Source of the DNA: Syntrophobacterales bacterium
Lineage (GTDB): Bacteria; Desulfobacterota; Syntrophia; Syntrophales; UBA2210
DNA: 55,275 nucleotides
Assembly: GCA_021163105.1 (NCBI GenBank)
Contig: JAGGXJ010000086.1
Span: 1 to 55,275, forward strand
Reading direction: 5' to 3'
Within the stretch, counting starts at the first letter, position 1. Every line of letters begins with the position of its first letter. Of the stretch, positions 7,033 to 13,715 are shown piece after piece. The notes beneath the pieces are model-generated. The model searched no databases. It was not told the origin of the DNA and worked only from the letters and a program-made list of their open reading frames with translations. Position numbers and translations under genes: made by a program.

Positions 7033-7503
7033 TCAGTCTTCAATCCCTTTAACGCTTATAGCTGATATAATGAGTCTGTTTCTTGTCAGCAGATGTTTCA
7101 TTACAATTCCAACTGCCTCAACTCTGTCTCCCACAAATATTTTATTTGAGGGCGCAGTGAACATAATTACGCGTATACCTGCTGTTTCGTCCTTAATATG
7201 AAAGTGAGGTCGGTTCAACCATTTGAAGCTTATCTTCTGAACCTCACCCGATATCCTGACAACATCTCCAATCATCTTCTGATCTATCTTTCCAATCTCG
7301 CAGGCGCGCGCCTTTGAAGCAAACTGTTCATTCGCCTGCAGAAAGCTCCTGCGGCTCATCCACGCAAGAGTCATTGGAATGATAATAAGCATAATCAGGC
7401 CGGGAACAGCATACAACAGAAATCGCGAATCTCCCGTTGAGGTATAGTGCAAGGTTACGGCCACCGCACATATAGCGAATGCTACCCAGGCTAATGCTGA
7501 CAT
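7033..7503 (-). CDS. Membrane protein with N-terminal TM helices and C-terminal OB-fold-like domain
   Basis: 156 aa; two hydrophobic N-terminal segments, then VRISGEVQKISFKWLNRPHFHIKDETAGIRVIMF...VGDRVEAVGIV. Confidence 0.6.
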   Translation of the reverse strand: MSALAWVAFAICAVAVTLHYTSTGDSRFLLYAVPGLIMLIIIPMTLAWMSRRSFLQANEQFASKARACEIGKIDQKMIGDVVRISGEVQKISFKWLNRPHFHIKDETAGIRVIMFTAPSNKIFVGDRVEAVGIVMKHLLTRNRLIISAISVKGIED

Positions 7504-7518
7504 CTTATCGTATTTCCT

Positions 7519-8400
7519 TTAATCTGCCGGCAGGTCTTTTCTGAACATCAGGAAGTATGCAACCCCGATGAAGAGAAAACCGCCGAATATATTCCCTATC
7601 GTAACAGGAATAAGATTCCAGAGCCATATATCGGACCAGCTAAGGCCTCCGTTGGCAAGCAGGAGCCCGCCCTTCTTTGCTATTACGGCCGGATACCAGT
7701 CACTGAGAAACTTTCCTGCAGGCAGGAAGTACATATTGGCCACGCAATGCTCAAAGCCGGACGCCACGAATGCCATAATCGGGAACCAGATTCCGAAAAA
7801 TTTACCGACCACGTCGTCTGCCGTAATGGCGAGAAGGAGGGCAATATTGACCAGAAAGTTACAACCAATAGCCTTCATGAAACAGGACCACAGGCCCGCG
7901 ATCCCAACGGCCTTGTACCCCAGGATCTTTCCGGCCGCGATGCCGACCGCCGTCATACCAAAGGCATTAACTGCCATGGTGCCATCGGCCTGGCCGCTTA
8001 CAAACGGGCCGACCGCCATAAGATACGCATAAGCAAGTGAACCTACAAGGTTTCCTATGTAGACCCAGACCCAGTTTCTCATGACCGCGCTCCATGTGAT
8101 CTTTTTCATCATCGCGGCCATGGGAACGATCATGCAATCACCGGTAAAGAGTTCCATCCCGGTCAGGACAATAGCGATCAAGCCTACCGGGAATACGGCA
8201 CCGCCGATAAGCTTAGCGATTCCCGGACCAAGATGTGCCGCTACGCCCGTTACGCATACCGTGCAGAGCGCTCCTCCAATGGCGATATAGGCGCCTGCCA
8301 TAAAGCCTCTGAGAAGCAAGTTAAAAACCGAAAGTTTTGCTTTGCCGACTCCCGCATTGCCAACAAGAGCAACCATTTTTGCAGGGGGGTTAAAAGCCAT
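7519..8400 (-). CDS. Formate/nitrite transporter family channel (FocA/FdhC-like)
   Basis: FNT motifs LTGMELFTGD, SGFEHCVANMYFLPAG; directly downstream of fdhA; RBS AAGGAGG. Confidence 0.9.
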   Translation of the reverse strand: MAFNPPAKMVALVGNAGVGKAKLSVFNLLLRGFMAGAYIAIGGALCTVCVTGVAAHLGPGIAKLIGGAVFPVGLIAIVLTGMELFTGDCMIVPMAAMMKKITWSAVMRNWVWVYIGNLVGSLAYAYLMAVGPFVSGQADGTMAVNAFGMTAVGIAAGKILGYKAVGIAGLWSCFMKAIGCNFLVNIALLLAITADDVVGKFFGIWFPIMAFVASGFEHCVANMYFLPAGKFLSDWYPAVIAKKGGLLLANGGLSWSDIWLWNLIPVTIGNIFGGFLFIGVAYFLMFRKDLPAD

Positions 8401-8468: not shown

Positions 8469-11168
8469 TCAGGCTGCTTCTATCTTTACCGCGCAGACCT
8501 TGTATTCGGGAATTTTCCCGATGGGGTCGAGCGCCGGATTGGTAAGAAGATTTACGGCTGCTTCACTGAAATGGAAATTCATAAATATGGTGCCCTCAGG
8601 TGGGGTATCAACCACACTGGCTTTTACCTTAAGGCTGCCACGCCGCGATGTAACCGTTATAAAATCGCCTTCTTTAATTTTCAGTTTTTCCGCATCCCTT
8701 GAATTTATCTCTGCCAGGCTCTCAGGATATCGTTCGTTGAGTCCCTCGCTTCTTCTTGTCATAGTTGCCGTATGAAAGTGATAGAGAACACGCCCGGTTG
8801 TAAGAATGAAAGGATATTCATTATCGGGCAGCTCATCCGAAGGTCTATAATCTATTGCGGAAAAGAGTCCCAATCCTCTGGAGAACTTACCCTTATGCAG
8901 ATATCTGGTACCGGGATGGTCCGTGCTGGGGCAAGGCCACTGAATCCCTTCCTCCTCTATGCGTTCGTAGGTAATGCCCGCGTAGCTGGGAGCCAAGCCG
9001 TTTATCTCGTCCATAATCTCTTTAGCGGAAGAGTAGCTCATAGCGTAGTTCATCTTTGTCGCCAGTTCGGAGATTATCTGCCAGTCAGCTTTTGCCTCAC
9101 CAGGTGCATCAACGGCCTTTCTTATACGTTGAACTCTCCTCTCCGTATTGCTGAATGTGCCATTCTTTTCGGCAAAACATGCTGATGGCAGCACCACGTC
9201 GGCAAGTTGTCCCGTTTCGTTCAGAAAGATGTCCTGTACAACAAGGATGTCAAGATTTTTAAGGGATGCCTCAACGTGGGTGAGGTCAGGATCGCTGACC
9301 ATCGGGTTTTCTCCCATGATGTAGAGGCCTTTAAGGTCTCCATCATGTGCCGCGTTCATAATTTCCATGATGGTGAGGCCGGGTTTTGCCGGCAGTGAAA
9401 CGCCCCATGACTTTTCAAATTTGGTCCTGGCATCATCATTTGCTATAGGCTGATATGCCGGGAGAACATTTGGAAGCGCACCCATATCGCAGGCGCCCTG
9501 GACGTTGTTCTGGCCTCTGAGAGGATTGACCCCGCCACCTTCCACTCCGACATTACCGCACAGCATTGACAGATTTGCGCAGGATTTAACGGCGTCCGTT
9601 CCGTGCGAATGCTGTGTAATGCCCATAGCATACAGGATGGACGCACTGTTTGCCTCCGCGTATATGCGAGCGGCAATTCTGAGATCATCGGCTGGTACCC
9701 CTGTAATGTCTTCGACATGGTCGGGGGTATATTTTGCGACGGTCTCTTTCATGGTCTCAAAACCCTCTGTACGATTCGCCACGTATTCCTTCGCGTAAAG
9801 TCTCTCATCAATGATTGAGTTCATCAGACCATTAAGAACGGCCACATTTGTGCCGGGTTTGGGACGCAGCCATATATCGGCATAGTCCACAAGGCCGATC
9901 TTTCTGGGATCGATCACGATCAGTTTGGCACCATGCTGGCGGACAGCCCTCTTTACGCCCGAGCCTATCACCGGGTGATTCTCTGTTGTGTTAGTTCCTA
10001 TCGCGAGAATTGCATCCGTAAATTCTATCTCTTCTATGGAATTGGTCATTGCGCCTGATCCGAATGTGGCAGCCAGACCGGCTACCGTAACGGAGTGTCA
10101 GAGACGGGCGCAGTGATCGATGTTATTTGTACCGATCACCGCTCTCATGAATTTCTGGAAGAGATAGTTTTCCTCGTTGGTACAGCGTGCCGAGGAGAGC
10201 CCCGCAATACTGTCAGGCCCGTCTTTCTCTTTTATAGAGGCAAATTTTTCTGCGATATAGCCGTAGGCCTCTTCCCAGCTTGCCGCTTTCAACTCTCCAT
10301 CCATGCGAATAAGAGGCGTTTTTAGGCGATCGGAATTGTCTATGAAGTTCATTCCAAATCTGCCCTTGGAACAGAGCATTCCATGATTGGGCTTGCCATA
10401 ATCCATATTTGTTGTGACCTTGACAACTTTTCCATCACTGACATTGAGGTCCATCTGGCATCCTACTCCGCAATAGGGGCATGTTGTGCGCACCTTTTTC
10501 ATTTCCCACGGACGCCCTTTAAACCTTGCCTGTTTGAATGTCAGGGCCCCGACGGGGCACGCGTCGACACATGCGCCACAGAACACACATTCGGAATCTA
10601 TGTAATCTGCGTCGAAGGCAGGGCTGACCTTTGTGTGTGATCCGCGCATTGAGAAGTCGAGAACTTCGTGAACCTGTATCTCATTACAGACTCGGATGCA
10701 TCTTCCGCAGAGGATACACTTGTTGAGATCTCTCTGTATCATGGAATTGGTGTCTTCTATCTCATATCCCGGGAGATCGATCTCAAAGCGGGGTTTTTCA
10801 ATGCCCAGTTCGTATATGAGATCCTGAAGTTCACAGTCTCCGTTCTTTTCACATTGAAGGCAGTTGTGATTTCCTGATGACCACAGAAGTTCCGCCACCA
10901 TCCTGCGGGCATTCATAACCTTTTCGGTATTGGTCTGCACAACCATGCCCGGACTTACAGGTGTGCAGCACGAAGCTTCAAGTTTTCCAGCAGTTCCAAT
11001 CTCGACAACACATACGCGGCAGGCACCTGCTGGTTTGGTGTTGGGATAATAGCAAAGGGTTGGAATATGTATCCCATTTTCTTTAGCAATTTCCAGAATG
11101 GTTTGTCCTGAAGATGCCTCTATCTTTTTCCCGTCAATTGTTAATGAAATTTTGTTGCCCATCTTCAC
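8469..11168 (-). CDS. fdhA: Selenocysteine-containing formate dehydrogenase catalytic subunit with N-terminal NuoG-like ferredoxin domains; in-frame UGA(Sec) at 10098-10100
   Basis: ORF 10098-11168 ends ..[12 protein letters not shown]; same frame continues [25 protein letters not shown].. into ORF 8469-10049; MGD motifs throughout; N-terminal 2Fe-2S and multiple 4Fe-4S motifs. Confidence 0.95.
10068..10100 (-). promoter_or_regulatory. Sec UGA codon plus bacterial SECIS-like hairpin
   Basis: Minus strand: UGA CACUCCGUUAC [GGUAGCC] GGUCU [GGCUGCC]; 7-bp stem, GGUCU apical loop starting 18 nt after UGA. Confidence 0.9.
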
Positions 11169-11173
11169 TCCTC

Positions 11174-12895
11174 CTAACCCCTTTTTACGAGATCTTCAAA
11201 TTCACCCCTAAACTTTGCAACCATTGCTTCTATGGGCATTGCAAATGCATCGCCTGTAGGACACAATGTCAACCCTTTGATCGTGTCGCATGTATCAAGA
11301 ATAGTGTCAATATTTTCGATAGTTCCTTCACCGCTTGTCAGTTTCCCGAGCAAAACTTTGATGGTTTTTGAACCTTCTCTGCCAGGAACGCACTGCCCGC
11401 AGCATTCATGGGCATAAAAATTTATTGTCCGCAGGGCCAGCTCGGGAATAGACATGGTATCATTGATGACCATGATTCCACCGGAGCCAAGCATGGTGCC
11501 TGCTTTAGCACATGAATCGTAGTCCATCTTAAGGTCGCCTATTTCGTCAGCTTTTAAAATCGGCACAGACAGACCTCCGACAATAACAGCTTTCAAGTTT
11601 CCTTTTACCCCACCGGCTGTTTCGAGAATAACCTTAAGGGATGTTCCTAAAGGATACTCGTAAACCCCAGGTTTGTTGACATGACCGCTTACCCCATAGA
11701 GTTTAGGGCCAAAGTTTCCCTCAGTACCGATCTTTTTAAATTCCTGTACCCCTTTCTCCACGATAAAAGGAACACAGGAGAGTGTTTCTACATTGTTAAC
11801 AATGGTAGGAGAGCCATAAAGACCAACATTGGCAGGAAATGGAGGTTTGACTCTCGGGTTCCCTCTTTTGCCCTCTATAGACTCGATTAACGCTGTTTCT
11901 TCCCCGCAAACATATGAGCCGGCGCCCCGGTGAACTACAATATCAACATGATTGAGCTGGCCATCTTTTTTTGCCTGTCTTATGGCATTCTCAAGGATAT
12001 CCGCAATCCATCTAAATTCTCCCCGAATATAAATGAAGGCCTTTTCGGCTCCTATTGCATAAGCTGAAATGGCTATTCCCTCAATCATAAGATGCGGATC
12101 ATACTGCATGATTTGCCTGTCTTTAAAAGTTCCTGGCTCACCCTCATCCGCATTGCATATTAAATAGACAGGTCGAGAATTATCTTTAGGGAGAAACCCC
12201 CACTTCACTCCTGCGGGAAAACCGGCGCCACCACGTCCTCTAATCATCGATCCCTTAACCATGTCAACAATTTCAGATGGTTGCATCTTGAAGGTTTTTT
12301 TAAGTGCTTCATAACCACCACCCTTCTTATAAACGGTGATATCTGTAGCATCTGAAATGCCCCGATTTTTCAAAAGGATATTACACTCTGTCCCGAAGTT
12401 TGAAAACGTGTCAGGTTCAGGCATTTTACCGGACTTCAGCGATTCAACCAGTTCATCCACTTTCTCGATTGTTAAGTTTTCATAATACGTATCATTAACC
12501 TGAACCACAGGACAGGTGCCACAGGAACCAAGGTCTTCAACAGAGGAAAGGGTGAAGAGGCCATCGCCGGTTGTCCCCCCAACCTCGATTCCTAATTTTT
12601 TCTTGAGATGTTCAACAATTTCATATGCACCGGATAGGAAACCCGGTATATTTGTATCGACCTGCAGGTGATATTTACCTACCGGTTTAGTATTATACAT
12701 TGTATAATACGTCGTTACACCAAAAGCTCTGCTGTTAGGTACACCTACAATTTTAGCTACCTCTTTAATGTCTTCATTAGACAAAAAATTGTTGTTTTTA
12801 CGCTGGGCTATTTCTAAAGCAGGCATAAGGGCCGATTTTCTGGAAGGATAGAGATTAGCCAGCTCAGATACTCTTTCTTCTGTTTCTTCGTTCAT
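11174..12895 (-). CDS. NADH dehydrogenase-type NuoE-NuoF fusion (diaphorase subunit of formate dehydrogenase), with altered Fe-S ligands
   Basis: 573 aa: NuoE-like thioredoxin domain (1-~165), then NuoF with GRGGAGFPAG, NADEGEPGTFKDR, VCGEETALIESIEGKRG. Confidence 0.9.
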   Translation of the reverse strand: MNEETEERVSELANLYPSRKSALMPALEIAQRKNNNFLSNEDIKEVAKIVGVPNSRAFGVTTYYTMYNTKPVGKYHLQVDTNIPGFLSGAYEIVEHLKKKLGIEVGGTTGDGLFTLSSVEDLGSCGTCPVVQVNDTYYENLTIEKVDELVESLKSGKMPEPDTFSNFGTECNILLKNRGISDATDITVYKKGGGYEALKKTFKMQPSEIVDMVKGSMIRGRGGAGFPAGVKWGFLPKDNSRPVYLICNADEGEPGTFKDRQIMQYDPHLMIEGIAISAYAIGAEKAFIYIRGEFRWIADILENAIRQAKKDGQLNHVDIVVHRGAGSYVCGEETALIESIEGKRGNPRVKPPFPANVGLYGSPTIVNNVETLSCVPFIVEKGVQEFKKIGTEGNFGPKLYGVSGHVNKPGVYEYPLGTSLKVILETAGGVKGNLKAVIVGGLSVPILKADEIGDLKMDYDSCAKAGTMLGSGGIMVINDTMSIPELALRTINFYAHECCGQCVPGREGSKTIKVLLGKLTSGEGTIENIDTILDTCDTIKGLTLCPTGDAFAMPIEAMVAKFRGEFEDLVKRG

Positions 12896-13010: not shown

Positions 13011-13715
13011 CTATCCTTCAAAACTCAGATTTCTTTCCTTCTCTTCTTCTTTGTCTGTCTTTCGCTGGTCAACAAAAAATATTAAGCTCTCTAATTCACA
13101 GGCCATATCAACATCGGAGATAAAAACATCATCGTTTGTTCTTAAAGCGACCGGTGCAAAATTCAAAATCCCTTTTATGCCTGCACCCATAAGTTTGTCT
13201 GCTACATCTTGGGCCACATCAGGAAGCGTCGCAATTATTGCGATTTCCATATTGTCTGTTTTAATAACCTCAGCCAGATTTTCCACGCTGTGAATTTTGA
13301 CACCGGAAAAATTTTTACCTATCTTATTGTTGTCAATATCAAAGGCACAGATAATCTTAAGATGAAACTTGGAAAAACCTTCAAATCTTAAAAGAGCGCT
13401 CCCCAAACTTCCCACGCCGACTAAAGCTACTCTCCACTCCTTATCTATACCCAAAATAGATTCTAACTCACTTATTAACCTCTCAATTTCATACCCTACT
13501 CCTCGTTTACCAAATTCTCCAAAATAGGAGAGGTCTCTTCTGAATTGTTCGGGAGAAACATTTGAGCACTTTGATATCTCACCTGATGAGATAATCTTTA
13601 CATTATTTTCCTTGAATCTTCTCAAGTTCCTGAGATAGAGACTCAGCCTTCTGATTGTTTCTGCAGAAAAGCATTTTTTCTTAGTGCAGATTGTATGCTG
13701 TGATAATTTTCTCAC
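13011..13715 (-). CDS. rex: Redox-sensing transcriptional repressor Rex
   Basis: N-terminal winged helix (ETIRRLSLYLRNL; SPEQFRRDLSYFGEFGKRGVGY) and Rossmann domain (VALVGVGSLGSALL); GTG start after AAAGGA. Confidence 0.93.
   Translation of the reverse strand: MRKLSQHTICTKKKCFSAETIRRLSLYLRNLRRFKENNVKIISSGEISKCSNVSPEQFRRDLSYFGEFGKRGVGYEIERLISELESILGIDKEWRVALVGVGSLGSALLRFEGFSKFHLKIICAFDIDNNKIGKNFSGVKIHSVENLAEVIKTDNMEIAIIATLPDVAQDVADKLMGAGIKGILNFAPVALRTNDDVFISDVDMACELESLIFFVDQRKTDKEEEKERNLSFEG

Follow-up and report, generated by a model that had tools for sequence, protein, structure and literature searches.

Clade-wide loss of N1a ligands and a separate, probably genuine change at N3 in the fused NuoE-NuoF subunit of a putative selenocysteine-type formate dehydrogenase

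Fusions of NuoE and NuoF, and the absence of the N1a cluster from them, have precedents among the relatives of complex I. HoxF of the NAD-reducing hydrogenase of Cupriavidus necator is a Nqo1-Nqo2 fusion without N1a (PMC3189943); it has a canonical N3 motif (SCGICVPC) and works with HoxU and HoxHY. In the W-dependent formate dehydrogenase (FDH) MeFDH1 of Methylorubrum extorquens (7vw6/7xqw/8j83), a two-subunit NAD-linked enzyme whose beta subunit is also a NuoE-NuoF fusion, the N1a-equivalent [2Fe-2S] cluster B2 lies outside the relay and the N3-equivalent B1 is on it (PMC10869683). The RcFDH and CnFDH enzymes (FdsGBA) are NAD-linked FDHs as well, built from Nqo1-3 homologues, and here the N-terminal thioredoxin-fold domain of FdsB cannot bind a [2Fe-2S] cluster (PMC7171172), while an N1a-type cluster is retained in the separate FdsG subunit. 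In the two NAD-linked FDHs of known structure it is the N3-equivalent that links FMN to the alpha subunit; gaps along the chain reach about 14 Å (PMC10869683, PMC7171172).

The window analysed here, which is the whole 55,275-nucleotide stretch of DNA from a Syntrophobacterales bacterium, encodes on its minus strand a fused NuoE-NuoF protein (11174-12895) of 573 residues with no stop and no frameshift. Its 2Fe-2S_thioredx, Complex1_51K and NADH_4Fe-4S domains all score above the curated Pfam cut-offs, and SLBB is present in addition. The features of the locus are as follows.

7033..7503, minus strand: small ORF that follows the gene for the FNT channel
7519..8400, minus strand: formate/nitrite (FNT) channel gene
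8469..11168, minus strand: fdhA, encoding the catalytic subunit, whose N-terminal Fe-S domains resemble those of NuoG; 900 codons including an in-frame TGA, Sec357 (profile match)
10098..10100, minus strand: fdhA codon 357, a TGA that is translated as selenocysteine (U357) and has a stable hairpin after it
11174..12895, minus strand: fused NuoE-NuoF diaphorase subunit, 573 residues (ORF and Pfam domains)
11192..11440, minus strand: NuoF C-terminal N3 [4Fe-4S] domain, residues 486-568 (Pfam)
11261..11263, minus strand: distal N3 ligand C545, kept (alignment)
11381..11404, minus strand: altered N3 motif CCGQCVPG, residues 498-505, with S498C and C505G; C499 and C502 kept (alignment and codons)
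11768..12259, minus strand: NuoF FMN/NADH-binding domain, residues 213-376 (Pfam)
12434..12865, minus strand: NuoE-like thioredoxin-fold domain without N1a ligands, residues 11-154 (Pfam and alignment)
12512..12535, minus strand: second N1a half-site DLGSCGTC, residues 121-128; D121 stands in place of Cys, C125 is retained and C128 is a gain of the clade (alignment)
12641..12658, minus strand: first N1a half-site DTNIPG, residues 80-85; Cys lost at D80 and G85 (alignment)
13011..13715, minus strand: Rex NADH/NAD+-sensing repressor, directly upstream of nuoEF

The genes for Rex, NuoEF, the selenocysteine-containing FdhA and the FNT channel apparently form one cluster; the small ORF that follows it (7033-7503, minus strand) had no match in Pfam or NCBIfam. 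FdhA scores 907 bits against TIGR01591 (cut-off 666), has every Fe-S ligand cysteine found in its relatives as well as an intact Sec357, and departs from them at one of 70 invariant positions. The hairpin 3' of the TGA (-23 kcal/mol over 66 nt) is a plausible bacterial SECIS element; a search of the whole window for RNA families gave no match. The gene for an FdhA with NuoG-like Fe-S domains and a selenocysteine active site adjoins a diaphorase gene, as expected of a NAD-linked metal-dependent FDH. Beyond rex, on the opposite strand, lie genes of beta-oxidation, encoding an acyl-CoA dehydrogenase, a hydroxyacyl-CoA dehydrogenase/enoyl-CoA hydratase and a thiolase. This gene context suggests a NAD-linked formate dehydrogenase that either disposes of NADH as formate or uses formate. 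Neither the six same-genus genomes sampled nor the 13 same-family ones (G001-G019 against G000) carry the fused nuoEF, and since the operon is absent from them it looks laterally acquired.

A predicted model of NuoEF (mean pLDDT 83.7) keeps both the NuoE and the NuoF fold, and its closest full-length solved matches in Foldseek are HoxF of Hydrogenophilus (5xf9, TM 0.81), the best match, and the MeFDH1 beta subunit (7xqw, TM 0.82). The protein shares with HoxF the fusion and the absence of N1a, but it is not a HoxF: the two lie far apart in the tree, and the partner here is FdhA instead of a hydrogenase. HoxF also retains Cys at the first and third ligand positions but not at the fourth, and with this different pattern and its distance in the tree its N1a loss is independent of the one described below. 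MeFDH1 resembles the window enzyme in fold, in the fused beta subunit and as a two-subunit NAD-linked FDH, but identity is only 28%, MeFDH1 keeps both B2 and B1, and its active site is W-Cys in place of selenocysteine.

The first-pass annotation had counted one remaining N1a ligand out of four, and the alignment agrees. VDTNIPG...VEDLGSCGTCP of the window lies over VCTTTPC...VECLGACVNAP of human NDUFV2 without a gap, the cysteines being replaced by D80, G85 and D121, so that only C125 is left. We extracted NuoE and NuoF from GTDB genomes and from the window's own order, and compared the ligand positions. At least two of the four N1a ligands (two to three) are missing in all 31 other fused proteins of the clade, as opposed to none of 46 split NuoE, which all keep the four cysteines. 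Within the fused clade the cysteines at 80 and 85 are missing throughout (31/31), and position 121 is Asp in 15 proteins and Cys in 16. Asp80, Pro84 and Cys125 are present in every one of the 31, and a new Cys128, forming C125-x2-C128, is found in 30 of them versus 0/46 split NuoE. The window protein carries the same marks: a single ORF with D80, P84, C125 and C128 and no Cys at 85.

Maximum-likelihood analysis places the N1a-less proteins in a single clade (29/29; SH-aLRT/UFBoot 66/94) nested within four-cysteine proteins, with the window protein sister to L004. Another fused protein, L037 (6001-7737), still has all four N1a cysteines and joins the N1a-less clade at 100/100. It is likely an intermediate, indicating that the fusion preceded the loss of N1a, which most simply happened a single time, in the ancestor of the N1a-less clade. 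The loss is therefore ancestral to the clade and not specific to the window. Given the HoxF and FdsB precedents, and the position of the N1a-equivalent outside the relay in MeFDH1, it is ordinary in mechanism, a further case of the known HoxF-like loss. What replaced the cluster is not random, as D80, P84, C125 and C128 are conserved, which argues for a retained role at the vacated site. That a conserved Asp/CxxC site has taken the place of N1a throughout the clade is relevant to the old question of what N1a is for, in anaerobes that should have less need of protection from reactive oxygen.

The N3 motif has a different history. The window reads HECCGQCVPGREG where L004 reads HESCGQCVPCREG, and the alignment through the motif is gap-free, so that here, as at N1a, the cysteines have not merely shifted. 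Cys498 replaces the Ser directly before ligand C499 and ligand position 505 is Gly, with C499, C502 and C545 kept; alignment and codons thus uphold the earlier reading of a third Cys turned into Gly, an extra Cys gained and the distal Cys retained. Codon 498 is TGC (TCC in L004) and codon 505 is GGC (TGC in L004). A pair of frameshifts was considered as the origin of the change and rejected, as these are two clean single-base substitutions. Ser498 and Cys505 occur in all 75 comparable NuoF proteins, including the closest relative L004 (81% identity), which points to strong selection for both residues. Of the 42 NuoF positions that are invariant elsewhere the window differs at exactly these two, and no other complete protein compared differs at either. 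One more position otherwise invariant in the clade is altered close to the motif, D528N.

The pair S498C and C505G is thus found in one genome only. Neither of two wider distributions that we considered holds: a pattern with C498-C499 matched in 8 of 396 genomes of the phylum, in a NuoF context only in the window's own genome, and an N3 loss shared with neighbours as a mark of the clade fails because L004, L083 and all others are canonical. The expectation that the losses define a clade is consequently borne out for N1a (31/31 fused proteins, monophyletic) but not for N3, which is altered in the window alone. Several independent losses had been read as one functional redesign; this does not hold, as the N1a loss is old and clade-wide and N3 changed separately, in this lineage only. 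The first-pass annotation had merged two unrelated changes.

Elsewhere the scan of the 396 genomes recovered two other proteins with a NuoF motif in which the third Cys is Gly, both reading ESCGKCTPGREG. They are orthologous NuoF-FAD fusions (NfnB/HydB-like; G310, G457) combining NuoE-like, NuoF and dihydropyrimidine-dehydrogenase/GltD-like domains, located as follows.

L120, 58-3033, plus strand: NuoF-FAD fusion with ESCGKCTPGREG
L121, 3-2978, minus strand: NuoF-FAD fusion with ESCGKCTPGREG

The orthologues come from two genera of one family, are 73% identical and have saturated dS, so loss of the third N3 ligand can persist. The third Cys is canonical in L125 and L126, which are closely related to them, and in the remaining NuoF-like proteins found in that family. 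The two orthologues share the Gly with the window protein but differ from it in their partner domains and taxonomic family and in keeping the Ser before the first N3 Cys. Their existence makes C505G of the window more credible, since it is not unique to one assembly; having no C498, they give no support to religation by that residue. In L120 two N1a cysteines are gone as well (ETGNDAFATLAPV versus ETGCNGFCAQGPV in L121), which could be a sign of decay.

How would such an enzyme work? In complex I and the enzymes related to it, N3 is regarded as a stepping stone that does not vary and cannot be spared. Three cysteines are enough for a [3Fe-4S] cluster or a site-differentiated [4Fe-4S] one, as in aconitase and the radical SAM enzymes. 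Judging from the sequences, the locus most likely encodes a functional NAD-linked formate dehydrogenase that lacks N1a and carries N3 on three cysteines, and we infer its cofactor content, electron route, direction of reaction and N3 assembly in the following scheme. The window gene would provide the diaphorase subunit of a NAD-linked, selenocysteine-type FDH, in which NADH/NAD+ would react at FMN in the NuoF part. Electrons would pass from FMN to N3, enter FdhA, where N1b- and N4/N5-like clusters take them up, and finally reach the Mo/W site, with the FNT channel presumably transporting formate. Lying off this path, N1a would be dispensable and the NuoE domain now mainly structural. Separately, in this lineage, the third N3 ligand would have given way to Gly (C505G) and a Cys would have appeared beside the first (S498C), with N3 still assembled on C499, C502 and C545; the fourth iron may be held by C498 or another ligand, or may be absent ([3Fe-4S]). 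For the three-cysteine N3 being functional we see about an even chance. The account as a whole, in which the diaphorase of a Sec-type NAD-linked FDH lost a dispensable N1a once and still assembles N3, is our best explanation, and one that we hold about as readily as we doubt it. If true, a natural enzyme running on three N3 cysteines shows how far N3 can change.

The strongest rival, unlikely in our view but a serious one, is that the double change at N3 is a recent loss-of-function allele, so that the diaphorase no longer passes electrons and decay is setting in across an operon acquired laterally. A stretch of eight residues with two substitutions, both at universally invariant sites, and with D528N close by, is what such decay might look like, and the operon, lacking in the same-genus and same-family genomes, looks like a dispensable acquisition. 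On the other hand, nuoEF has neither frameshift nor stop, and fdhA has kept every ligand with its single departure from the invariant sites. Comparison with L004 gives dN 0.126 and dS 1.60, hence dN/dS of about 0.08 for nuoEF, a value dominated by older history; the ORF is otherwise intact, as had been claimed, and apart from N3 the enzyme seems to be intact and under constraint.

Next comes the reading, also improbable, that the N3 changes are errors or a strain mixture in the metagenome consensus and that the real protein has ESCGQCVPC. The source is a single draft genome in 154 contigs, both changes are from another base to G on the coding strand, and the closest relative is canonical. The same genome departs, however, at only one of 229 invariant positions in RpoB, within the range of its relatives, and at one of 70 in FdhA, so a generally poor assembly finds no support, and the third-Cys-to-Gly change is seen in two other genomes as well. 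We regard the N3 change as probably real.

More doubtful is that both altered sites are functional, with N3 working as a three-cysteine or C498-religated cluster on a path that electrons must take, and with the N1a site, empty throughout the clade, turned into a new conserved one (D80, C/D121, C125-x2-C128), e.g. a dithiol/disulfide or a metal centre with other ligands close to FMN. Finally, the first-pass proposal that N3 is gone and FMN gives electrons directly to the ferredoxin domains of FdhA is very improbable, the motif changes being as described but three of the four N3 ligands remaining, the N3-equivalent being the FMN-to-alpha step in both solved NAD-linked FDHs, and removal of the whole of N3 leaving, to go by those structures, a gap beyond their maximum of roughly 14 Å.

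Among open-licence papers we found no published account of either the N3 variant or D80/CxxC in place of N1a; if borne out biochemically, both would be new variants. Gene neighbourhoods differ within the fused clade. In L004 (1023-4253), the closest relative, there is no fdhA beside nuoEF, which is followed by an AAA_14/DUF4143 gene on the other strand. L012 (4187-7719), which also belongs to the clade, has its fused N1a-less NuoEF after a [FeFe]-hydrogenase gene, in place of fdhA, so the NuoEF module serves other partners too.
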